A stretch of 64,000 nt of DNA from NCBI RefSeq assembly GCF_042477335.2, contig NC_091251.1, forward strand, positions 33,248,501 through 33,312,500. Direction: 5' to 3'. Origin of the DNA: Ovis canadensis (taxonomy: Eukaryota > Chordata > Mammalia > Artiodactyla > Bovidae). This document shows, one piece after another, positions 25,207-61,908 of this stretch (the stretch's first letter is position 1; every line of letters begins with the position of its first letter). Below the pieces are notes generated by a model. That model did not search any database, was not told the origin of the DNA, and worked only from the letters and a program-made list of their open reading frames with translations. The position numbers were made by a program, and so were the translations under genes.

Positions 25207-28200
25207 ATGAGTGGGCTTGGCCGGCTGTTCGGGAGGGGTGAGCCTGGGCGAGACTGGCCCCCGGGAGGTGCGGGCCGCAGGGGGCTGGAGGCGGGGAGAG
25301 CCGGAGACGCTGTCTGGAAAACCCCGATAACCCGGCCTTCTCCCGAGCCAGCACCGCCGCTTGTGAGCGTGCGCGGTTCCAGCTGCCTTCCTCGCGAGGG
25401 AAGAGCCCGAGGCCCCGGAGGGGGCGCGAGTGGAGGGCGTGGCTACTGTGCTGGCTCCCACTGTTGAGGCTTTTGGGACGAGTTTCTTGGCAACCAATCC
25501 TTTCCAAAACACTGGTGCTTCCCAAGAAAGCTAGCCCTCTTGAGCTCCTCTGAGGTGGGGGAGACAGGCAAAATCTGGCATTTACAGTGTGGTGTGGCAA
25601 CTCCGTAATGGAGATTTTCCCGAAAGCCAGGGGCACACAGAAGAATCAGGGTGGCAGATGGTGATCCGGAGTCTAGAAGTATGCCAAGCGGGGGGTGGGG
25701 GGTGGGGGGGTGGAAGGGTGGTTGAGGTTCTCTAGGAAGAGGTAACTGTGCAAAACAGAGGCAGGTAAAAGTGTGGTATATTTAGGGAAAAGTTCTGACC
25801 TCTGAGTATGGGTGGGGGTGTGTGTGTGTGTGAAGGACCCTGTGTATCTTGTTAAAAAACCTTTTTTGGATTTTATTCTGTGGAGAGTATGGAAGGATCT
25901 TAAGCAGGCTCAGGCCTTCAGCTTTTTTTTTTTTTTTTTAATAAGTCTGTTAAAAGTGCAGAAGATAAAGGGAAAAATTGAGATCAGATTTTTTTCTTTA
26001 GCCTCCATGCTCTGTTCAATTTGATGCTGTGGAGTCAGGACCTTGAGTATCTTCTAGGATGACAAGTGGAACAGTGATTATAAAATATGATTCAACTCTG
26101 GTGGGGAACGAGATAATGAGGAGGTTATGCATGTGTGGGTGCCGGCGGCACATGGGAAATCTTTGTACCTTCCACTTGCTCAGTTTGCTGTAAACCCAAA
26201 ACTGTTCTAAAAAAAAAAAGTCTATTAAAAAATAAAAAAAGATTGGAAATGACTTGAAATGTAGTTAGGAATAGCAAAAGGATCCTAGCTTTGAAATTCA
26301 TGCTGTCTCATTTCAGTTCCTTGCAGTCTCTTATACAGCAGTTGTGATTTTAGATCAAAATGTTAACCTCTTTGTGCCTGTTTTCACATTTGTAAACTGG
26401 AGTTGGTACATTTCATTGTAGAAAGTCGTTTGGGGATTAACAACACTATTAAGTGCCTGGCACATACCATGCACTCCACAATCAGTGGCTAATATTTTTC
26501 CTTCACACAATGTGGGCTGCTCCATTGAATTCCAGGAAAGAAGGAGAAGGGGCCAACCCCTGAAGAGGCAATACAGAAACTGAAGGAGACGGAGAAGATA
26601 TTGATCAAGAAACAGGAATTTCTGGAGCAGAAGATTGAACAGGAGCTACAAACCGCCAAGAAGCATGGGACCAAGAACAAGAGAGGTAATGGGGGAGGGA
26701 AAGGTGCCACCAGGGAGGGCCCAGGGGGAAGCAAGGGCTTCTGGCTCTGATGTTCAGGGTGTGGGCTGGATCAGCTGCCCTACAGGCTTTGCGGAGGAAG
26801 AAAAGGTTGGAACAGCAGCTGGCACAAACCGACGGGACATTATCCACCCTGGAGTTTCAGCGTGAGGCCATTGAGAATGCCACCACCAATGCAGAAGTGC
26901 TTCGTACCATGGAGCTTGCTGCCCAAGGCTTGAAGAAGGCCTACCAGGACATGTGGGTATGGGGGGAGGGGAGGAGGGGGCCCAGGCACTGGGGAGAGCA
27001 GCTTGGTTTTGTGCTGTGAATCTTAAAACCTCTCCAGATGTGAACTGAGAGTAGAGACACCTGTGACGGCGAGACCTCTGTCAGCCTTCTTGCTTACTAC
27101 AAGATGACCTCTGCTGGCTGGGACATTCTAGGGAGGAAAGATGATTTTCCTTTTTTTTTTTTTTTTCCTTTTTGGTTGTGACGAGCAACTGTGGGATCTT
27201 AGTTCCCCAACCAGGGATTGAACCTGGGCCCCCAGCAGTGGAAGTATGGAATCTTAACCACTGAATCACCAGGGAAGTCCCAATTTTTCTCATTTTTTAA
27301 GACCCTTCAGAGAGAGCAACCAGTCTTCCCCATTGTGGCTTCATGTCATTTCTCAGCCCAAGTTTGTCTCTATACTTTTCCAGGGGTCTCTTTTACCTGG
27401 TAGCCATGGATTTGTCAGCCTGAAGCCACAGGCAGGAAGGACGTCATTCATGTGAGATTAAAAAGTGAAGGGGATCGTCACCTGATTTCTGGGCTGTGTA
27501 TCTTATTCTCAGGGACATTGACAAGGTGGATGAACTGATGGCTGACATCACAGAACAACAGGAGGTGGCCCAGCAGATCTCAGATGCCATTTCTCGGCCT
27601 GTGGGCTTTGGAGATGACGTGGATGAGGTGATTGGGCGAGAGGGGTCAGGGAATGTTGAAGGCACGGGACCAGTCAGAAGGAATGCCCAAGAGAATTGTG
27701 GGGCAGGTTTGGGGGGAACTCCAAAAGTATGGTTTTGGAAACAGAATTTTCCTTTGTTCTGAGTGGTCTTGTCCTCCCACATCCAGGATGAGCTGTTGGA
27801 GGAGCTAGAGGAGCTGGAGCAGGAGGAATTGGCCCGAGAGTTGTTACACGTGGGTGACGAGGAGGAGGAGCCCCCGGTCGCACTGCCCAGTGTACCTGCT
27901 ACACATCCGCCTGCAGAGCCAGGTACCCAGGGCTCTTCTGTCATCTCAAGGACTTGAGAGGGTGGGATAGACAGGGGGAAAATTACTCCTCATCCATCCT
28001 GCCTCAAAGGATCCAGGCAGAGAGGGTTGCTGCTACAGTTGCATAGGTTGTTAACTGCATAAGGGTACCTGGCTGAAGGGGCATGGGGACTGAGATCCAC
28101 TTCACTCCACAAACCATGTATCCTGGTTTAGGGATGCAAATGCTGGGAGAAATGAGCACCCTCTGATTTGCACAAAGGTGCTGTGGGAATTAGCAGCAGC

Positions 28201-29647: not shown

Positions 29648-32036
29648 TCAGGTACTGATTTCCAAGGACTGGTGACGATTAGTGGTGCTGGGGGGCTGGC
29701 ACATGGCCTCGAGTAGCCTGATCTCATGGGTGGGTTGCTCAGGCTGGAACTTCAGCACCCAGGGATCCTTGATGATGTCCAGGATGGTGGCACGCTTGGT
29801 GGCTTGGCGTAGCGTCTGGAGGATCAGGTTCTAGGGCAGGGGAGAGAGAGGTCTTGGCTGAGCTGGCCCCCTACTGTGCCACACAGGCAATGAGCAGCTG
29901 GACCTAAGGAAGAAGCAGGATAGCCCATCACACCACTCTGGTGAAAGGGAGTATGGCCCTGACTTTACCCTTAAAAGCCTCCTGTCTTCTGGCCTAGAGA
30001 TAGAGACTGCTGCTGCTAAGTCGCTTCAGTCGTGTCCGACTCTGTGCGACCCCATAGAAGGCAGCCCACCAGGCTCCTCTGTCCCTTGGATTCTCCAGGC
30101 AAAAACACTGGAGTGGGTTGCCATTTCCTTCTCCAATGCAGGAAAGTGAAAAGTGAAAATGAAGTCGCTCAGTCATGTCCGACTCTTAGCGACCCCATGG
30201 ACTGCAGCCTACCAGGCTCCTCTGCCCATGGGTTTTTCCAGGCAAGAGTACTGGAGTGGGTTGCCATTTCCTTCTCCAAGAGATAGAGACTAAAACCTGC
30301 TTATCATTCATCCCAGGTGCAAGCCCAGGGGTTGGCCCTTTAAGCCCTCCCTGCCATTCTAGGGCAGAGAGTGGGCGTGAGATGGCCCTGGTGGCGAGGA
30401 GCCTTCCCCTGGATCAGGAGGTCTAGGTTGGGTATTCCTTCCCTATGGGGCACCCAAGGCTTCAGCCCTCGTAGGGGAGCCAGCACCTTGCACTCCTGGG
30501 AGATGGCATAGTTAGGTGGAAAAGTGACCTCCTTCTGAGTCTCTTTCAGCAGCTTCTTGAGATTGGTGTCATCAAAGGGTAAACGGGCAACCACCAGAGT
30601 GTAGAGGATGACGCCCATGCTCCAGGTGTCAGACAGGAAGGGGTTGTAGGGCAAGCCTAGCAAGATCTCCGGGCAGGCATAAGCAAAGCTGCCACAGTAG
30701 GTCTGGCTGAGGTGGCTGAAGCAATTCACTTGGCGGTAAGAAGGGCTATTCCGCACAGACTGGTTAGAAGGCACCATCTTGGCGAAGCCAAAGTCCGATA
30801 TCTTCACATTCTCCCGCTTGTCCAGCAGCAGGTTCTCCAACTTTAAGTCCCTACCAGCAGCAGAAAGGCTGGGGGTCAGGAGAGGGCTTAGTATTAGACT
30901 GGGAGCTGAAGGGCCAGGGGTCAGAGGCTAGAAATGAGGACAGGCAAAGGGAGAGAGATGCCAATATGAGGACACAGGGCAGAGAGGAAGGAAAGCCAGG
31001 GAGTTGTGAGCAGAACCCAAAGGGGAGAGGATGGCCACTAAGGACTGCTGGGAGCTTACCATCACTTTTCATAAAGTGCTCTGCTCACAGGGGGCACTTA
31101 ATATATGTTCTTAAAAAAAAAAAATGTTCTTGATGAGACGATTAAAGTGGATGAATGGGCCTAGATATTCAGGAAGGAGATCAAGGAGGGGAGGGTGAGG
31201 GAAAGGGGGCAGAAAGTAGGAGACATGCATAAAACCCCCTGGAGCCCAAAGGCCCCAGTCTGAGTGGCAGCGCCCTCACCGGTGCACGATGCCTTTGCTG
31301 TGCAGGTAGGCGATGCCCAGGGTCAGCTGGGAGAACCACTTTCCAGCAAGGGGCTCAGAGCAGGCCCCGTAGCGCTGGATCCACTCAAGAACGTCACCAC
31401 CCTGAGCCAGCTCCAGAATGATGTAGACCCGGGATGTGGTCTCGATGGCCTGATAGAAGTTGATGAGATACTTGTGCCGCAGGACCTTCATCACCTGGCT
31501 CCAGAAGAGGGACCCATCAAACCCAGGCAGGGAGCTGTGCTCCAGCCCTCCTCCTCTCCCACTGCTGCTTTTTTAGAACTCTGCAACAGAATCAAACCCC
31601 AGAGGGCTGGTGGCCTATGGACAAACCTTGTGTTTTGTACTCTTACTTTTGGAGTGTCTGAAGGTGAGGTGGGAAGAAACTTAAATTTTCCTAGCTGCCT
31701 AGTGAGTCATTCAGTTGTGGTTTAGTGGTTTCTGGCTCCACCCCCTCCTAACCGTACCCCTTTTGCGAACCATTAAGTATCTTGCTATCAGTGCCCTCTT
31801 CTAGACCCCTTTCCAACCTGTATCTCACGGGGCAGGAACTTGTTAAGATAGTCCTCAGACGCCTTCTTCTTCGAGATGATCTTGACAGCCACCATGACCT
31901 TCTGCTTGGTGTAGTAAGCCTCATACACTGTCCCATAGGAGCCATTGCCAATGACTTTGCCCACTTCATAACCATACTCCTCCATGACAGAGCGGTAGGC
32001 TGAGGTGGGTGGTGCTTCCACGTCTCCCTTCCCCAT
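29648..32036 (-). CDS. TSSK4: Testis-specific serine kinase 4
   Basis: Four coding exons on the minus strand, 5' to 3': 31818-32036, 31280-31494, 30487-30850, 29648-29830. They sum to 981 nt, 326 aa (human 328). It is a CAMK-group Ser/Thr kinase of post-meiotic germ cells, linked in mouse to sperm flagellum structure and CREB phosphorylation. Kinase landmarks are intact: glycine loop GNGSYGTV (from G30), lysine K52 in VAVK, HRDLKLEN (catalytic D146) and DFG (D164-G166). The APE motif reads CPE, as in the human protein. The activation segment contains [16 protein letters not shown]. The junction inside HRD is between exons 2 and 3 (CG/G). A BovA dimer sits in the last intron. The start [10 protein letters not shown] matches the family. 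Confidence 0.95.
30009..30278 (-). mobile_element. BovA dimeric SINE in TSSK4 intron 3
   Basis: Two units with GTCGCTTCAGTCGTGTCC and GTCGCTCAGTCATGTCCGAC starts. The 13-bp duplication AGAGATAGAGACT is at 29996-30008 and 30279-30291 (perfect). It is sense to TSSK4. Confidence 0.92.
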
Positions 32037-34702: not shown

Positions 34703-35299
34703 CAGTCGCTCAGTCATGTCTGACTCTTTGCGAACCCATGACTGCAGCACTCCAGGCTTCCCTGTCCATCACCAACTCCCAGAGCTTGCTCAAACTCATG
34801 TGCATTGAGTCGGTGATGCCATCCAACCATCTCATCCTCTGTCAGCCCCTTCTCCTCCTGCCTTCAATCTTTTCCAGCATCAGGGTCTTTTCTAATGAGT
34901 CAGCTTTTCACATCAGGTGGCCAAAGTATTGGAGCTTCAGCTTCAGCATCAGTCCTTCCAAAGAATATTCAGGACTGATTTCCTTTAGGATTCACTGGTT
35001 TGATCTTGCTGTCCAAGGGACTCTCAAGAGCCTTCTCCAACACCACAGTTCAAAAGAATCTATTCTTGGTGCTCAGCTTTCTTTATGGTCCAACTCTCAC
35101 ATCCATACATGATTACTGGAAAACCATAGCTTTGACTAGATGGACCTTTGTTGGCAAAGTAATGCCTCTGCTTTTTAATAGGCTATCTAGGTTTGTCATA
35201 GCTTTTCTTCCAAGGAGCAAGCATCTTTTAATTTCATGGCTGCAGTCACCATCTGTAGTGATTTGGGAGCCCAAGATAATAAAGTCTGTCACTGTTTCC
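34703..35299 (-). mobile_element. BovB (RTE) LINE 3' fragment, antisense
   Basis: Minus-strand copy of the BovB 3' end, homologous to about 38080-38690 on the other strand. Translated pieces include CSHEIKRCLLLGRKAMTNLDSLLKS. Its flanks ATTAAGCTGCCT (34691-34702) and ATTAAGTTGCCT (35300-35311) look like a 12-bp duplication with one change. Confidence 0.85.
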
Positions 35300-35450
35300 A
35301 TTAAGTTGCCTACTGTATACAAAAACACTGCTAGGTTGTGCTTGCTAAGGATTTATCCTTTGCTAAGGATACCAAAATGGATAAATTATAATCCCCCTGT
35401 GAGGAGTTAGCAATTACCAAGGGAGACCGACACATAAGAAGTTAATGAAA

Positions 35451-35456
35451 GTGCTC

Positions 35457-35507
<51 letters not shown>

Positions 35508-35557
35508 GGCCCCTGCGCAAGGATGACACGCAAATTCGTGAAGCGTTCCATATTTTT
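35451..35557 (+). pseudogene. U6 snRNA retrocopy, full length, 5' half of a U6-L1 chimera
   Basis: 107 nt running from GTGCTCGCTTCGG to TTCCATATTTTT. It includes the ATACAGAGAAGATTAGC core and matches the mammalian U6 sequence I know at every position. There is no proximal sequence element or TATA box at the spacing Pol III U6 genes need. A 15-bp target-site duplication abuts its first base. It continues without a gap into an L1 3' end at 35558. It is therefore a retrotransposed copy, not an authentic U6 locus, though the RNA part is undamaged. Confidence 0.93.
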
Positions 35558-36061
35558 ATGGAAACAACCTAGATGTCCATCAGCAGATGAATGGATAAGA
35601 AAGCTGTGGTACATATACACAATAGAGTATTACTCAGCTGTTAAAAAGAATTCATTTGAATCAGTTCTGATGAGATGGATGAAACTGGAGCCGATTATAC
35701 AGAGTGAAGTAAGCCAGAAAGAAAAACACCAATACAGTATACTAACACATATATATGGAATTTAGGAAGATGGCAATGATGACCCTGTATGCAAGACAGG
35801 GAAAGAGACACAGATGTGTATAATGGACTTTTGGACTCAGAGGGAGAGGGAGAGGGTGGGATGATTTGGGAGAATGACATTCTAACATGTATACTATCAT
35901 GTGAATTGAATCGCCAGTCTATGTCTGACGCAGGATGCAGCATGCTTGGGGCTGGTGCATGGGGATGACCCAGAAAGATGTTCTGGGGAGGGAGGTGGGA
36001 GGGGGGTTCATGTTTGGGAATGCATGTAAGAATTAAAGATTTTAAAATTAAAAAAAAAAAA
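35558..36061 (+). mobile_element. L1 3' end fused to the U6 copy, with poly(A) tail
   Basis: Begins ATGGAAACAACCTAGATGTCC, the end of L1 ORF2, and runs through the L1 3' UTR to a poly(A) tail near 36050-36061. The flanking duplication AAGAAGTTAATGAAA is at 35436-35450 and 36062-36076 (15/15). The U6 and L1 parts therefore inserted as one unit. Confidence 0.9.
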
Positions 36062-36369
36062 AAGAAGTTAATGAAATAGTACAGTGAGATAAAGTTCTAT
36101 AAACAAAGTCTGAAAGGAGACGCAAGAAGGTGGCATTTGTACTGTTCAAAAGAAAGTTAAGCAGGGAATGGTGGATTGAACAGTATAGGCAGAAGGAACT
36201 ATATGAAGCTTGCAGGCCTGAGAAAATAAGACATTCAAGATTTCAATTTAAATACAGGATAAGGTTCCAGAGGGGAATGTACCTGCAGAAGTAATTTAGA
36301 TCCAGGTCTGAGAGGCCTAATATGCCAAGTTTTTTTTTTTTTTTTCTCTGTCCTATGTACTTAGGGTTA

Positions 36370-37497: not shown

Positions 37498-38690
37498 CAA
37501 GAACTTCCAGATGTTCAAGCTGAATTTAGAAAAGGCAGAGGAACCAGAGATCAAATTGCCAACATCTGCTGGATCATAGAAAAAGCAAGAGAATTCCAGA
37601 AGAACATCTACTTCTTGCTTCATTGACTACTCTAAAGCCTTTGACTGTGTGGATCACAACAAACTGTAGAAAATTCTTCAAGAGATGGGAATACCAGACC
37701 ACCTTACCTGCCTCCTGAGAAGACTATGTAGGTCAGAAGCAACAGTTAGAATTGGACATGGAACAACAGACTGGTTCCAAACTGGGAAAGGAGTACAAGG
37801 CTGTATATTGTCACCCTTCGTATTTACCTTATATGCAGAGTACTTCATGCGAAATGCCAGGCTGGATGAAACTCAAGCTGGAATCAAGATTGTCGGGAGA
37901 AATATCAATAACCTCAGATATGCAGATAACACCATCCTTATGTCAGAAAGCGAAAAGGACTAAAGAGCCTTTTGATGAAGGTGAAAGAAGAGAATGAAAA
38001 AGCTGGCTTAAAACTCAACATTCAAAAACTAAGATCTTGGCATTCAGTCCCATCACTATGGCAAATAGATGGGGAAACAATGGAAAAGTGACAGACTTTA
38101 TTTTCTTGGGCTCCAAAATCACTGCAGATTGTGTCTGCAGCCATGAAATTAAAAGATGCTTGCTCCTTGGAAGAAAAGTTATGACCAACCTAGATAGCAT
38201 ATTCAAAAGCAGAGACATTAGTTTGCCAACAAAGGCCCGTCTAGTCAAAGCTATGGTTTTTCTAGTAGTCATGTATGGATGTGAGAGTTGGACATAAAGA
38301 AGGCTGAGCACGGAAGAACTGATGCTTTGGAACTGTGGTGTTGGAGAAGACTCTTGAGAGTCCCTTGGACAGCAAGGAAATCAAGCCAGTCAATCCTGAG
38401 GGATATCAATCCTGATAACTCATTGGAAGGACTGATGCTGAAGCTGAAGCTCCAATACTTTGGCCACTTGATGAGAAGGGCTGACTGATTAGAAAAGACC
38501 TTGATGCTGGGAAAGACTGAAGGCAGGAGGAGAAGGGGCGGACAGAGGATGAGATGGTTGGATGGCATCACTGACGCAATGGACATGAGTTTGCGTAAGC
38601 TGCAGTAGACGGTTAAGGACAGGGAAGCCTGGTGTGCTGCAGTCCATGGGTTCGCAAAGAGTCATACACGACTGAGCGACTAAACTACAA
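37498..38690 (+). mobile_element. BovB (RTE) LINE, 5'-truncated
   Basis: Encodes broken pieces of the BovB reverse transcriptase: a 37500-37680 part (GTRDQIANICWIIEKAREF), then about 37685-37963 (GTTDWFQTGKGVQGCILSPF and the catalytic box as YADN instead of YADD), then the distal part with GSKITADCVCSHEIKRCLLLGR. Frameshifts and stop codons disable it. The perfect 11-bp duplication CAAACACATAC is at 37487-37497 and 38691-38701. BovB is known as a horizontally transferred LINE. Confidence 0.9.
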
Positions 38691-39579: not shown

Positions 39580-40132
39580 GTGAGCCGAGCGCGACGTTTT
39601 GCGGTGCGGCCGCAGCCGCTGTGATCAGGCACCGCGGCGGCCAGCCCCGTGGAGGTCGGTCCTCAAGTCCTCTCCAGGCACCCCGCTAGCGCGCCGCTCT
39701 GGGGGAGACCCCGGCCGGAGCGCAAGAGCGGCTACGGGGCCGCAGAGGCCTCCTCGGCCAGCCCTTCCCGCGTGGAGAGCACCACAGGGCTGCAGCGGGA
39801 AGGTGCCGGAGGTGCGGGGCCGCGTGGCGTTGCCATGGAAATGGGCTGGTGGGGCTCGCGGGGAGGTCCCAGGCAGGCGGGCTGCTAGAGGGGGGACCCC
39901 AGGTTCAGAGGACTACAAGAGCAGAGGCGGAACCTAGTGTTCGGGCTAGAGAGACTTGGTGTGGTGTGGCGGTGGGGTCGGGGGGTGGTGGCCTCCCGAG
40001 GGATGAGAGGAAAGGCCAAGGGGAGGAATTGGAGCCATCGGCTTCAGTTCGAAGAACCTGACCTGGGGCGTCATTTGATCCCTGGTTCCCATAACTGCAG
40101 GACTCCCTCAAACAGGTTCCGCTGCCTTAAGG

Positions 40133-43100
40133 ATGACAGTCCTAGGGCACCCTCGAAGTTGGAGCTGCCGGTGGTGGCCGCTCCTGCTGCTGCTGCTGCT
40201 CACAGGCCGTGAGCCGGGGGTGGAAGCTGTGACACACTACAAGGCCGGCGACCCCGTCATTCTGTATGTCAACAAAGTGGGACCTTACCATAATCCTCAG
40301 GAGACTTACCACTACTATCAGCTTCCAGTCTGCTGCCCTGAGAAGATACGCCACAAAAGCCTCAGCCTGGGCGAAGTGCTGGATGGGGACCGAATGGCAG
40401 AGTCTCTGTACGAGATCCGCTTTCGGGAGAATGTGGAGAAGAGAGTTCTGTGCCACATGCAGCTCAGTTCCGCACAGGTCAGCCTCTCCACAGTGACTGG
40501 GACTCAGCCCACCCTCCCAGGACCTTGAGTTTATGGTTTTCAAAGCACCTGTATGGAAATGATCTGATTTGATTCTAACTACAACTTTATGTGACAGGCA
40601 GGACAGTTGGTTGATACAAAAACATCCTTGCTCAGAAGTAACTTTTTTCGAGACTACATAGATGGTGGATTGCAGAGTTGATATGAGAGCCCAGGGCTCC
40701 TGACTCGAAGCTTCTCTGTTGGTCGTAAGGTCCCAACTCCTACGTAGTCATTTTTTTCCATTCCTACCTCTCAGCTATGTTAACTGGTTCCTTTACACTC
40801 TGTTTTGCCTGTCATGCTGTTTTCTTCAGCGATTCCTATCTTAGGGCATTTTCCCTTGGTCTACTCTAGGCCTTCCTACACCTTCTCCCTCTCCTTCTAG
40901 GCCTTCATCCTGACAAATCATACTTGTTCATTTAGGAGAATCACAACATACTAGGGTCTGATCCAGTGGCTCTCAGCAGAGGGGTTTTGTCTCTCAAGGG
41001 ACATTTGGCGATGTCTGGAGATATTTTTGATTGTTGGGATTGGGGGATGCTGCTGACGTTTAGTGAGAAGCTAGGGATGGAGCATCTTACAGTGCGCAGC
41101 GCCCCAACAACAAAGAAGCCTCTAGCCCAAAATGTCATTAGTGCTGAGGCTGAGATCCTGCTCTAATCCATTGCTTGGGGAGGCCTTGTCTGACTCCTGA
41201 CTTGCTCTCTGTAGGTGGAACAGCTACGCCAGGCCATTGAGGAACTATATTACTTTGAATTTGTGGTGGACGACTTGCCAATCCGTGGCTTTGTGGGCTA
41301 CATGGAGGAGAGTGGCTTCCTGCCTCACAGCCACAAGATAGGACTCTGGACCCATTTGGACTTCCACCTAGAATTCCATGGAGATCGAATTATATTTGCC
41401 AATGTCTCAGTGCGGGACGTCAAGCCCCACAGTTTAGATGGGCTACGACCTGATGAGTTCCTAGGCCTTACCCACACCTACAGCGTGCGCTGGTCTGAGA
41501 CGTCAGTTGAGCGTCGCAGTGACAGGCGCCGTGGTGATGATGGTTTCTTTCCCCGAACACTGGAAATCCATTGGTTGTCCATCATCAATTCCATGGTGCT
41601 TGTGTTTTTACTGGTGGGTTTTGTGGCTGTTATTCTCATGCGTGTGCTTCGAAATGACCTGGCTCGGTACAACTTGGATGAAGAGACAACCTCTGCAGGT
41701 TCTGGTGATGACTTTGACCAAAGTGACAATGGCTGGAAAATTATCCATACAGATGTCTTCCGCTTCCCTCCATACCGTGGTCTGCTCTGTGCTGTGCTTG
41801 GTGTGGGTGCCCAGTTCCTGGCCCTTGGCACTGGTGAGGTGATAACAGTTAATCAGGGATTTCTCTCAAGGGGTAGCACTAAGTAGGTGGTTTGTTCAGA
41901 AAAAGATCTGCAGATCTTTTCTGTCCAAGGTGAGGGGCAGACCTAAGGGGTGGTGGGATGGCTCTAGCAAGGATGCATATATTCTGTTGTGGGTTTTCTG
42001 GACAACAGAACTGGGGGATATTGGAAGCCCTGGGTCTGGGAGAAAGGGGGCTGGCTGATCTCTCTGAAGTGGGATAAGTGAGATCTAACACAGGCTTTCC
42101 ACTACCACCCTGCAGGCATTATTGTCATGGCGCTGTTGGGCATGTTCAACGTGCACCGTCACGGGGCTATTAATTCAGCAGCCATCTTGTTGTATGCCCT
42201 GACTTGCTGCATCTCTGGCTACGTGTCCAGCCACTTCTACCGGCAGATTGGAGGCGAGCGCTGGGTGTGGAACATCATTCTCACCACCAGTCTCTTCTCT
42301 GGTATGACTGCCTGTTTCCTGGTGGGCCAATTTAGGAACTTAGAACACATTGTGGAATGAAAATAGGCAAAAAAAAAACCCACTAAAAAAAAACATTCAA
42401 AAGACAAAAGTGCATTTTTTTCCATAGTTAAAAATGATTAAGCCTTTAAAATGTTCTGCTGCCCCACTGCTAAGTCGCTTCAGTCGTGTCTGACTCTGTG
42501 CGACCCCATAGATGGCAGCCCACCAGGCTCCTCTGTCCCTGGGATTCTCCAGGCAAGAACACTGGAGTGGGTTGCCATTTCCCTCTCCATTGCATGAAAG
42601 TGAAAAGTGAAGGTGAAGTCGCTCATTCGTGTCCAACTCTTAGCGACCCCATGGACTGTAGCCCACCAGGCTCCTCCATGGGATTTTCCAGGCAAGAGTA
42701 CTGGAGTGGGGTGCCATTGCCTTCTCCGTTAAAATGTTCTAAGCAGCATGATAAGCACTTGACATGCCTTCATCTCATTTAATCCTCATTACTGACTTTA
42801 TGAAGTTGGTACTATTGTTCCCATTTTACAGATGAGGAACTTGAGCTTAAGGCTGGTTGGGTAACTTGCCTGAGATTATACTTCTAAAAAGCAGTGAATC
42901 AGGTTTCATAACTAGGCAATCAAATTCTAGAGCCTGTATTCTCAACCATTCCACTGAAATAACGTTTTTGAATTTATCTTTTGATACTCCCTTTCTTTTT
43001 CCCGAAGCTTTTTTAATTTGGAAGTGGGCTACCCTACTCCAGCCTTTCAAGCCAGCTTGTCCTTTCAAAGACAGTAATTTGCATTCTGAACCTTTTGTGT

Positions 43101-44707
43101 TTCCAAATGAAGTGTCTGATTTCTGTTCCATCACATTTACATTTGAACCAAGGCTTTCTGAAAACAGGGCCTTAATTCAAAGGAATGTCTCATGCTAGGA
43201 GTCAACCAGTGCCATGGCAGGATAAGTCCTTGGAGGCAGGTGGATTTGTGTCATTCTTAGATCATTGTGTAACGGGCTTGCCTTGATCCTTAATGATAAT
43301 GGGTAGAGGAGGGAGTGTTGGTAAGCCAGGGAGCAAAGAACGAGACATGAAGGGGTGGAGTCAGCCTGGGAGCAGGATGTTTCACTCCTCACCCCTTTAG
43401 GTCCAGTGTGATTGGTGCTCCCAGGGATGTAGCTCCTAGTGCTGACCCTCCCTCTGGGGGCCCATCCCTGCAGTGCCTTTCTTCCTGACGTGGAGTGTGG
43501 TGAACTCCGTGCATTGGGCCAATGGCTCAACACAGGCTCTGCCAGCCACTACCATCCTTCTGCTTCTAACGGTTTGGCTGCTGGTGGGCTTTCCCCTCAC
43601 TGTCATTGGAGGCATCTTCGGGAAGAACAACGCTAGCCCCTTTGATGCACCTTGTCGCACCAAGAACATCGCCCGGGAAATCCCGCCCCAGCCCTGGTAC
43701 AAGTCTACGCTCGTCCACATGACTGTTGGTGGCTTCCTACCTTTCAGGTATCCTCCCTTTATTCTGTGGCCATCACTCTCAGGATCCTGACCTTAACTTT
43801 CCCCTTCCTTACTCACCAGTACCCTAACCCAATGTCAGTGATGGTCCCTGGTTCAGCTGTACCATTAAGAGATCACTAAGTGGTTCCTCCTTTCTCCAAG
43901 CAGGAGAATCAGTTCAAATATGAGGGTGTCTAATTTGAAAAGCTCTCCAGAGACATTGCTCCTTTCACTGTCTTCCTAGTTTCTGACCTTAGTGACACCA
44001 TGTGGGGCTTAAAACCCATTTGATTGCTCATTCAGTTTGTTGAGTACCTTTTCATGCCAGGCAAATGCAGTGCAAAACAGAACAGACAAAATCTGTTCTC
44101 AGACTACCAAAGATGTTCTTGAAATGATAGCAGCTAATCATAGGTTAAAAACAATCCCCATCAAGCCAGGAACTCCAGGGCAAGAAGTGGAGAGGGCCCA
44201 CTTTCCACAGTGAGCCGCTAACACGGAGGGGTGGTGCTGGATTTTGGCCTGGCTGCTGCGCTGGCAAAGCACCCGGTCCTCTAAATGCTGTCTACCGTCT
44301 CTTCTCTTCACAGTGCCATCTCTGTGGAGCTGTACTACATCTTTGCCACAGTATGGGGTCGGGAGCAGTACACTTTGTACGGCATCCTCTTCTTCGTCTT
44401 CGCCATCCTGTTGAGTGTGGGGGCTTGCATCTCCATCGCACTCACCTACTTCCAGCTGTCTGGAGAGGATCACCGCTGGTGGTGGCGCTCTGTGCTGAGT
44501 GTTGGCTCCACTGGGCTCTTCATCTTCCTCTACTCGGTGTTCTACTATGCCCGTCGCTCCAACATGTCAGGGACGGTACAGACAGTAGAGTTCTTTGGCT
44601 ACTCCTTACTCACTGGATACGTCTTCTTCCTCATGCTGGGCACCATCTCCTTTTTTTCTTCCCTAAAGTTCATCCGCTATATCTATGTTAACCTCAAGAT
44701 GGACTGA
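40133..44707 (+). CDS. TM9SF1: Transmembrane 9 superfamily member 1
   Basis: Five coding exons: 40133-40477, 41215-41833, 42116-42301, 43474-43747, 44314-44707. They sum to 1818 nt, 605 aa (human 606). It is a nine-span nonaspanin of endosomes, Golgi and lysosomes, implicated in autophagy and trafficking. A signal peptide ([10 protein letters not shown] then a leucine run) leads a lumenal domain of about 210 residues with NVS as a glycosylation sequon. The first membrane span is about residues 236-258 ([20 protein letters not shown]). Eight more hydrophobic spans follow in exons 2-5. The C-terminus [13 protein letters not shown] fits the family's KxD Golgi-retention type. One glycine is missing from the human GDDGG run. 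Intron 1 holds a MER20, intron 3 a BovA dimer and a MIR. Confidence 0.97.
40965..41163 (+). repeat. MER20 hAT element in TM9SF1 intron 1
   Basis: CCAGTGGCTCTCAGCAG ... GGGACATTTGGCGATGTCTGG ... CCCAAAATGTCATTAGTGC matches MER20 nearly end to end. Confidence 0.85.
42458..42728 (-). mobile_element. BovA dimeric SINE in TM9SF1 intron 3
   Basis: Two antisense units. The perfect 12-bp duplication TTAAAATGTTCT is at 42446-42457 and 42729-42740. Confidence 0.92.
42755..42935 (-). repeat. MIR element, antisense, in TM9SF1 intron 3
   Basis: CATTTAATCCTCATTACTG ... CCCATTTTACAGATGAGGAAC ... AACTTGCCTGAG is the MIR core in reverse. Confidence 0.75.
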
Positions 44708-60372: not shown

Positions 60373-61908
60373 TTTCACACTATACACAAAAATAAACTCA
60401 AAATGGCTTAAATACTTTAAGACATGACACCATAAAACTCCTGGAAGAGAAGAGAGGCAAAACATTGTCAGACATAAATTGGAGCTATATTTTCTTAGAT
60501 CAGTCTTCCAAGGCAAAAGAAATTAAACCCCAAAATAAACAAATGGAACCTAATGGAATTTAGAAGCTTCTGAACAGCAAAGGAAACCATAAACAAAAGG
60601 GGAAAAGCCTACAGAATGGGCAGAAACATCTGCAAACCATGTGACCAACACAGGCGTAATTTCCAAAGTATATAAACAGCTCATACAACTCAGTATCGGA
60701 AAAACAATCCAATCAAAAAATGGGCAAAAGGGGACTTCTCCGGTGGTGCAGTGGTCAGGGTACATGGGCTCCATGCTTGGTCTGGCAAGATCCCACATGC
60801 TGTGGAGCAACTAAGCCCACTCACCACAACTACTGAGCCCACACGCCACTGCCGAGCCGATGAGCCCTAGAACCTGTGCTCCGCGACAAGAGAAGTCACT
60901 GCAAGGAGAGGCCCATGCACTGCAAAAGGGAGCTCCCCACTCACTGCAGCTAGAGAAAGCCTGCTCGCAGCAGTAAGACCCAGCACAGCCAAAAATAAAA
61001 GTTTAGAAATATTTTTTAAATGGGCAGAAGATCTAAATAGACATTTCTCTAAAGAAGATATACTGATGGCTAACAGGCACATGAAACTTTGCTCAACATT
61101 ATCAGAGAAATGCAAATCAAAACGACCGTGAAGTATCACCTTCCATGGATCAGAATGGCCATAACTGAAAAGTCTACAAATAATAAGTGCTGGAGAGGGT
61201 GTAGAGTAAAGGGAACCCTCCTACACTATTGGTGGGAATGTAAATTGGTGCAGCCATAGTGGAAAACAGTACGGCGATTAAAACTGAAAATAGAGTCACC
61301 ATATGATCCAGCAATCCCACTCCTGAGCATATTTCCAAAAAAGACAAAAAGTTTAATTTGAAAAGCACATACCCCAGTGTTCACAGCATTATTTGCAATA
61401 GGCAAGACATGGAAGCAATCTAAGTGTCCAACAACAGATGAAGATGTGGGGTATATGTATATACACATATACAATGGAATATTACTCAGCCATAAAAAAG
61501 AATGAAAAATGCCTTTTGCAGCAACATGGATGGACCTAGAAATTATCTAAGTGAAGTCAGAGAAATACAAATATTATATGATATCACTCACATGTGGAAT
61601 CTAAAAAAGAATACAAATGAACTTATTTACAAAACAGGAATAGACTCACAGACATAGAAAACAAACTTATGGTTACCAAAGGGGGAAGGGGAGGAAGGGA
61701 TGAATTAGGATTGTGGGATTAACAGATACACACTACTATATATAAAAGAAACAAGGACTTACTGCATAGCAGAACTATATTCAGTATCTTGCAATAATAA
61801 TCTATAATGGAAATCATCTGAAAAAAAATGTACATAACTGAACCACTTTGTTTAGTACTTTTGAAACTAAAACAATAGTTAATCAACTGTAGTTCAATTG
61901 AAAAAAAA
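60373..61908 (+). mobile_element. L1 3' portion, interrupted by a SINE
   Basis: L1 ORF2 C-terminal region and 3' UTR, ending in an A-tract. It contains the usual AATGGAATATTACTCAGCC stretch near 61470. Short flanking CTCAGCT copies (60366-60372 and 61909-61915) may be the duplication. A CHR-type SINE splits it at 60731-61017. All frames are broken. Confidence 0.8.
60731..61017 (+). mobile_element. CHR-type tRNA-derived SINE nested in L1
   Basis: Starts GGGACTTCTCCGGTGGTGCAG and ends in AAAATAAAAG-like tail sequence. The duplication AAATGGGCAAAAG (60718-60730) versus AAATGGGCAGAAG (61018-61030) shows it entered the L1 after that had inserted. Confidence 0.85.

Follow-up and report, generated by a model that had tools for sequence, protein, structure and literature searches.

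A complete U6 snRNA copy and a 5'-truncated LINE-1 3' end within one 15-bp duplication: a probable U6-LINE-1 chimeric processed pseudogene in a sheep-like genome

We analysed a 64,000-nucleotide stretch of DNA, called the window here, and found that a complete U6 snRNA copy within it runs directly into the 3' end of a LINE-1 (L1) element, with a single target-site duplication around both parts. We conclude, with a probability of about 0.93, that the locus is a U6-LINE-1 chimeric processed pseudogene that arose from one L1 target-primed reverse transcription event. The L1 part belongs to a young subfamily, and the insertion has many sisters in the same genome. The coordinates of its parts are collected in Table 1.

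Table 1. Parts of the U6-L1 insertion, in window coordinates.
Feature	Position	Strand	Basis
Target-site duplication, 5' copy (AAGAAGTTAATGAAA)	35436..35450	+	Identical to 36062-36076, otherwise unique in the window
Full-length U6 snRNA copy, 107 nt, five T at its end	35451..35557	+	Rfam RF00026, 118.8 bits, full model
5'-truncated LINE-1 3' end: last 68 ORF2 codons and 3' UTR	35558..36049	+	Translation; ORF2p match; 98-99% to the best genome copies
Open ORF2 tail, 68 codons and stop	35559..35765	+	Translation; human ORF2p match
Poly(A) tail; the A-run goes two bases into the duplication	36050..36061	+	Sequence read
Target-site duplication, 3' copy	36062..36076	+	Identical to the 5' copy
Putative first-strand nick, bottom strand TCTT/AT	35434..35439	-	One departure from consensus TTTT/A

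The U6 copy lies in the sense orientation relative to the L1. Its Rfam match covers model positions 1-105 of 105 (gathering score 44) and was the sole U6 at gathering score within the window. This match confirms that the copy is full-length, as the sequence-only reading of this DNA had claimed. The L1 part, also on the sense strand, is joined directly to the 3' end of U6 and, with its poly(A), occupies 35558-36061. It opens with the last 68 residues of L1 ORF2p, read to the stop and followed by 3' UTR, and these residues matched human LINE-1 ORF2p chains in the PDB (E = 4e-18). L1 sequence continues upstream of the junction position in six of seven compared genome copies, so the L1 part of the window is 5'-truncated. 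The ORF2 tail match and the A-run bear out the earlier description of U6 running straight into an L1 3' end that carries a poly(A) tail.

The duplication is exact (15/15 bp), and the window holds just two occurrences of it, starting at 35436 and 36062. No other 15-mer pair has that spacing, and the match cannot be lengthened at either end (0 bases), in keeping with the perfect duplication reported from the sequence alone. Its left copy adjoins U6 nucleotide 1 and its right copy adjoins the A-run, where the border is ambiguous: the two A that close the tail cannot be separated from the two that open the duplication. The insertion site, TCTT/AT, is L1-endonuclease-like, departing at one base from the consensus 5'-TTTT/A given in the available text of PMC4476161. 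The single duplication that encloses both parts supports the earlier proposal that U6 and L1 entered as one retroinsertion.

We infer an order of events that would have started with a bottom-strand nick by L1 endonuclease at TCTT/AT, where an L1 RNA would have primed by its poly(A) tail. Synthesis of cDNA would have covered about 490 nt of L1 before passing into a complete mature U6 RNA with five U at its end, and a second-strand nick 15 bp away would have produced the duplication. In the joining step that we prefer, the L1 RNA would have been broken, and RTCB would already have ligated mature U6 to it when reverse transcription began.

We then examined the window's own assembly (2.97 Gb, 42 contigs) for similar copies. 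Leaving out the window's own copy, the exact 3' 20-mer of U6 with five or more T was found at 141 other places (reversed control, 0), and the exact 49-nt 5' end at 79 (control, 0). Given these counts, it would be an overstatement to call such a locus rare. The sequence-only reading had proposed a genome search for other U6-L1 joins. For this junction census, 100 of the 141 places with a U6 3' end were fetched, and 71 of the 100 run into well-aligned L1 (88% identity or more, 50 nt or more); with a looser test, L1 continues after U6 in 85. Over 107 nt, 26 of the 100 fetched places were identical to the window's U6 and a further 28 differed by one base. Adding the window gave 101 junctions, of which 72 were used at the 88% and 50 nt thresholds, including 6 whose U6 has more than 14 mismatches; 69 of the 72 served for base counts.

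Outer duplications were also frequent. A duplication of 9 bp or more was detected within the fetched stretch for 50 of the 89 U6 copies that have 10 mismatches or fewer, compared with 4/89 in a mismatched-partner control. The commonest length was 15 bp (12/50), and some duplications will have been missed because many L1 parts run past the fetched stretch. Nearly the whole L1 part of the window was matched at 95-99% identity by at least 39 other genome places, with 40 of 1955 candidates scored. Taken together, we conclude that the locus is ordinary, one more example of a catalogued class with many alike in the same genome.

Several individual places were noted during the census. The sequence at C28:25281580-25281628, together with the L1 copy L115, makes up another U6-L1 chimera that has the window's L1 subfamily and a longer L1 part. 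At L056, L066 and L101, a 16-20-nt sequence upstream of U6 recurs inside the downstream L1-like sequence with no preceding poly(A), and these repeats could reflect either insertion into an older L1 or rearrangement.

For the step that joined U6 to L1, we lean modestly towards RNA ligation before reverse transcription over template switching. Under template switching, which we consider a serious possibility, the insertion would again be a single one, but the reverse transcriptase of L1 would have run off the L1 RNA, or stalled on it, and then moved over to the 3' end of U6. Mature U6 bears a cyclic phosphate, which suits it to RTCB. Exactly five T were present at 53 of the 72 junctions, and five U plus the L1's own T explains 69 of the 72. 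The T-run search demanded at least five T, and the five-U result is therefore read against the places with exactly four T, which number only 9 in the genome. This nearly uniform end suits mature U6 and so is compatible with ligation, and it tells against template switching. T microhomology at the base before the junction, which we considered as evidence for template switching, was rejected as such because it was not in excess (18 seen versus 14.5 expected, P=0.30). Both the five-U end and the missing excess of microhomology also fit an end-to-end jump to the mature U6 3' end. The window's own junction shares 0 or 1 T, because the L1 copies that continue upstream end in GAC, GAT or CAT before ATGGAAAC.

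The first L1 base was A at 42 of 69 junctions, compared with 28.9 expected (P=0.002). A was also the first base in 13 of 24 truncated L1s that have no U6 (13/25 with L115, itself a U6 chimera), and thus the preference is not special to chimeras and does not favour ligation. For the same reason we dropped a pyrimidine-A cleavage signature (20/69 versus 11.1, P=0.0075) as evidence for ligation. In the available portions of the literature, template switching is the model used by Doucet 2015 (PMC4476161), both routes are left open in PMC13174262, and U6-LINE-1 RNA ligation is described in PMC13247085, which cites Moldovan 2019. The sequence-only reading had proposed a chimera made in one event by template switching. 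The single event stands, but the switch is not established, since ligation is a published rival (PMC13174262, PMC13247085, as far as the available text goes) that fits the census about equally.

We were able to map 70 of the 101 junctions onto L1, with 20 set aside as unaligned at the junction, 5 as short and 6 for a U6 with more than 14 mismatches. Among the 70 there were 8 pairs with identical L1 junction positions, one position being used three times and five positions twice, a recurrence that is also compatible with ligation of mature U6. Chance would give 1.1 pairs when junctions were moved freely within 30 nt (8 reached in 0/5000), 1.4 when the first L1 base was kept (P=0.0002) and 3.4 when the junction dinucleotide was kept (P=0.016). 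A stricter set of 49 junctions contained 6 pairs, compared with 0.6, 0.9 and 1.5 expected under the same three nulls (P=0.0002, 0.0004 and 0.004). The groups that share a junction are L036/L056/L064, L091/L095, L060/L107, L052/L103, L062/L105 and L074/L085, the last being loosely placed, with alignments that start 1 and 4 bases inside the junction. Shared junctions could also have arisen if a single chimera had been copied, but we rejected this: only 6-9 of 20 bases agree between the 5' flanks, and the L1 parts are 96-98% identical in five groups and 89% identical in the sixth, whereas for several members there are other copies with 98-99% identity. Given the differing flanks and these L1 identities, we conclude that the chimeras sharing a junction are separate insertions.

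Truncation points of L1s that have no U6 also tended to fall at chimera junctions. Of 34 L1 copies, all chosen for their similarity to the window's L1 part, 25 gave a truncation point, and leaving out L115 reduced the set to 24. In this small control set, and in an analysis that was unplanned (post hoc), 3 of the 24 points fell exactly on chimera junctions (0.5 expected, P=0.014) and 8 fell within 2 nt (2.7 expected, P=0.0045). Such coincidence is what run-off or pausing would predict and so speaks for template switching. One of these copies, L003 (C8:89512478-89512984), is a U6-less L1 whose truncation point lies about 2 nt or less from the U6-L1 junction of the window, and it was picked by similarity to the window's L1 part. 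Without L003 the exact coincidences were 2/23 (P=0.07) and those within 2 nt were 7/23 (P=0.008).

We tentatively suggest, as a possibility that we would not yet favour, that U6 joins L1 at preferred, shared break or stop sites, with a common cause behind chimera formation and 5' truncation. In that case there would be preferred sites at which L1 RNA breaks or reverse transcription halts, and U6 would be attached at these same ends. Should the shared sites be RNA breaks, much of the ordinary 5' truncation of sheep L1 would amount to run-off on pre-broken RNA. The recurrence of junctions, some of them shared with U6-less truncations, is moderately supported and may be the only part of this analysis that is novel; we found no report of recurrent U6-L1 junctions in the titles and abstract openings of the papers listed by our literature searches.

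We also considered whether a U6 pseudogene and an L1 could have been inserted separately and abut by chance. We rejected this reading as highly improbable, because one perfect duplication surrounds both parts and the arrangement recurs genome-wide, with the direct U6-L1 join in 71 of 100 other fetched copies and an outer duplication in 50 of 89 U6 copies. The least probable reading, that this is a functional U6 gene downstream of which an L1 was inserted, draws on the intact U6 and its terminator-like T run, but we rejected it and consider a working gene very unlikely from the sequence, as no TATA was seen by eye at -30 to -21 (35421-35430 is GGGAGACCGA), U6 starts exactly at the duplication, and the same arrangement is common to many genome copies. 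Bovid sequence was also sought, with the L1 part and L1 patterns, as a contaminant of plasmid, phage, viral, prokaryote and E. coli collections, and none was found.

To place a limit on the age of the insertion, we compared its L1 part with 34 genome copies chosen by similarity to it. Over 483 positions of the L1 part (16 of them CpG-type), 0 non-CpG substitutions are private to it, whereas the 34 copies carry 0 to 8 each, the count being 0 in two. The L1 part departs from the majority at five non-CpG positions (35801, 35805, 35877, 35975 and 35983), where 2 to 14 of the 34 copies have the same difference, and by C to T at four CpG-type positions (35639, 35780, 35824 and 36021), where 4 to 13 of the 34 do. 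The 93 non-CpG sites of U6 and the 30 sites of the duplication are unchanged as well. The 95% upper limit on divergence is, by arithmetic, about 3/590, or 0.5% per site. Mammalian sequence changes at about 2e-9 per site per year, and at that rate the insertion would be about 2.5 million years old or less, if the five non-CpG differences that it shares with other copies are taken to mark a subfamily. With such an age, the insertion is predicted to be absent from cattle and is likely to be absent from goat. All seven CpG of U6 are intact (7/7), which also points to youth. Set against the four CpG-type changes in the L1, this is not a clear conflict, because the L1 changes may be inherited. These results support the earlier view of a fairly recent event in bovids, with 0 private non-CpG changes in the L1 and 0 in the duplication. 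The accompanying caution that U6 conservation gives no date went too far, since zero changes across U6, the duplication and the private non-CpG L1 sites do bound the age.

Near the insertion, the window contains a protein kinase match in an ORF at 30340-30924 (-), which we take to be a TSSK4-like gene, and EMP70 exon matches in three ORFs within 40079-44704 (+), presumably a TM9SF1-like gene. If this reading of the genes holds, the insertion is intergenic, between the two. Other repeats are present in the window. An inverted repeat pair (35237-35302 / 38079-38143; 91% over 66 bp), one arm of which lies in the left flank of the insertion, may be a BovB or SINE piece. A weak tRNA match at 27203-27275 (-), at 31.5 bits with a gathering score of 29, is probably the head of a tRNA-derived SINE. 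An old L1 fragment at 61409-61710 has about 66% identity to the young L1 part.

U6/LINE-1 chimeric retropseudogenes were reportedly described by Buzdin in 2002/2003 and by Garcia-Perez in 2007, and the locus is a member of this well-known class. We suggest that it is useful as a starting point, since the sheep-like genome holds a dense set of such chimeras. With about 100 events in that set, junction statistics could test whether ligation or template switching joins the parts, and also what causes 5' truncation of L1. According to table 2 of Doucet 2015 (PMC4476161), 100 of 149 analysed U6 copies in sheep and 54 of 122 in cow are repeat-associated, and section 10 of Law & Burns 2026 (PMC13174262) gives 180 U6/LINE-1 loci in human.

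The available text of PMC4476161 also describes U6 on other LINEs, namely L2 in platypus, L2-like and RTE-like elements in Anolis, and one possible CR1-like case in turkey. Like the locus, these joins place U6 upstream of a LINE 3' end, but the LINE belongs to a different clade, and in platypus, unlike here, U6 is almost always 5'-truncated and the duplications are short. The U6 pseudogenes with poly(A) and the 3'-truncated U6 pseudogenes of the same source resemble the locus in being L1-mobilised U6 with a duplication, whereas the locus has a complete U6 and an L1 segment between U6 and the poly(A). In contrast, the U6/LINE-1 chimeras, as presented in the available portions of PMC4476161 and PMC13174262, share with the locus a complete sense U6 joined directly to a 5'-truncated L1 3' end, a poly(A), a single duplication and an L1-endonuclease-like site, and in anatomy the locus is no different from them.
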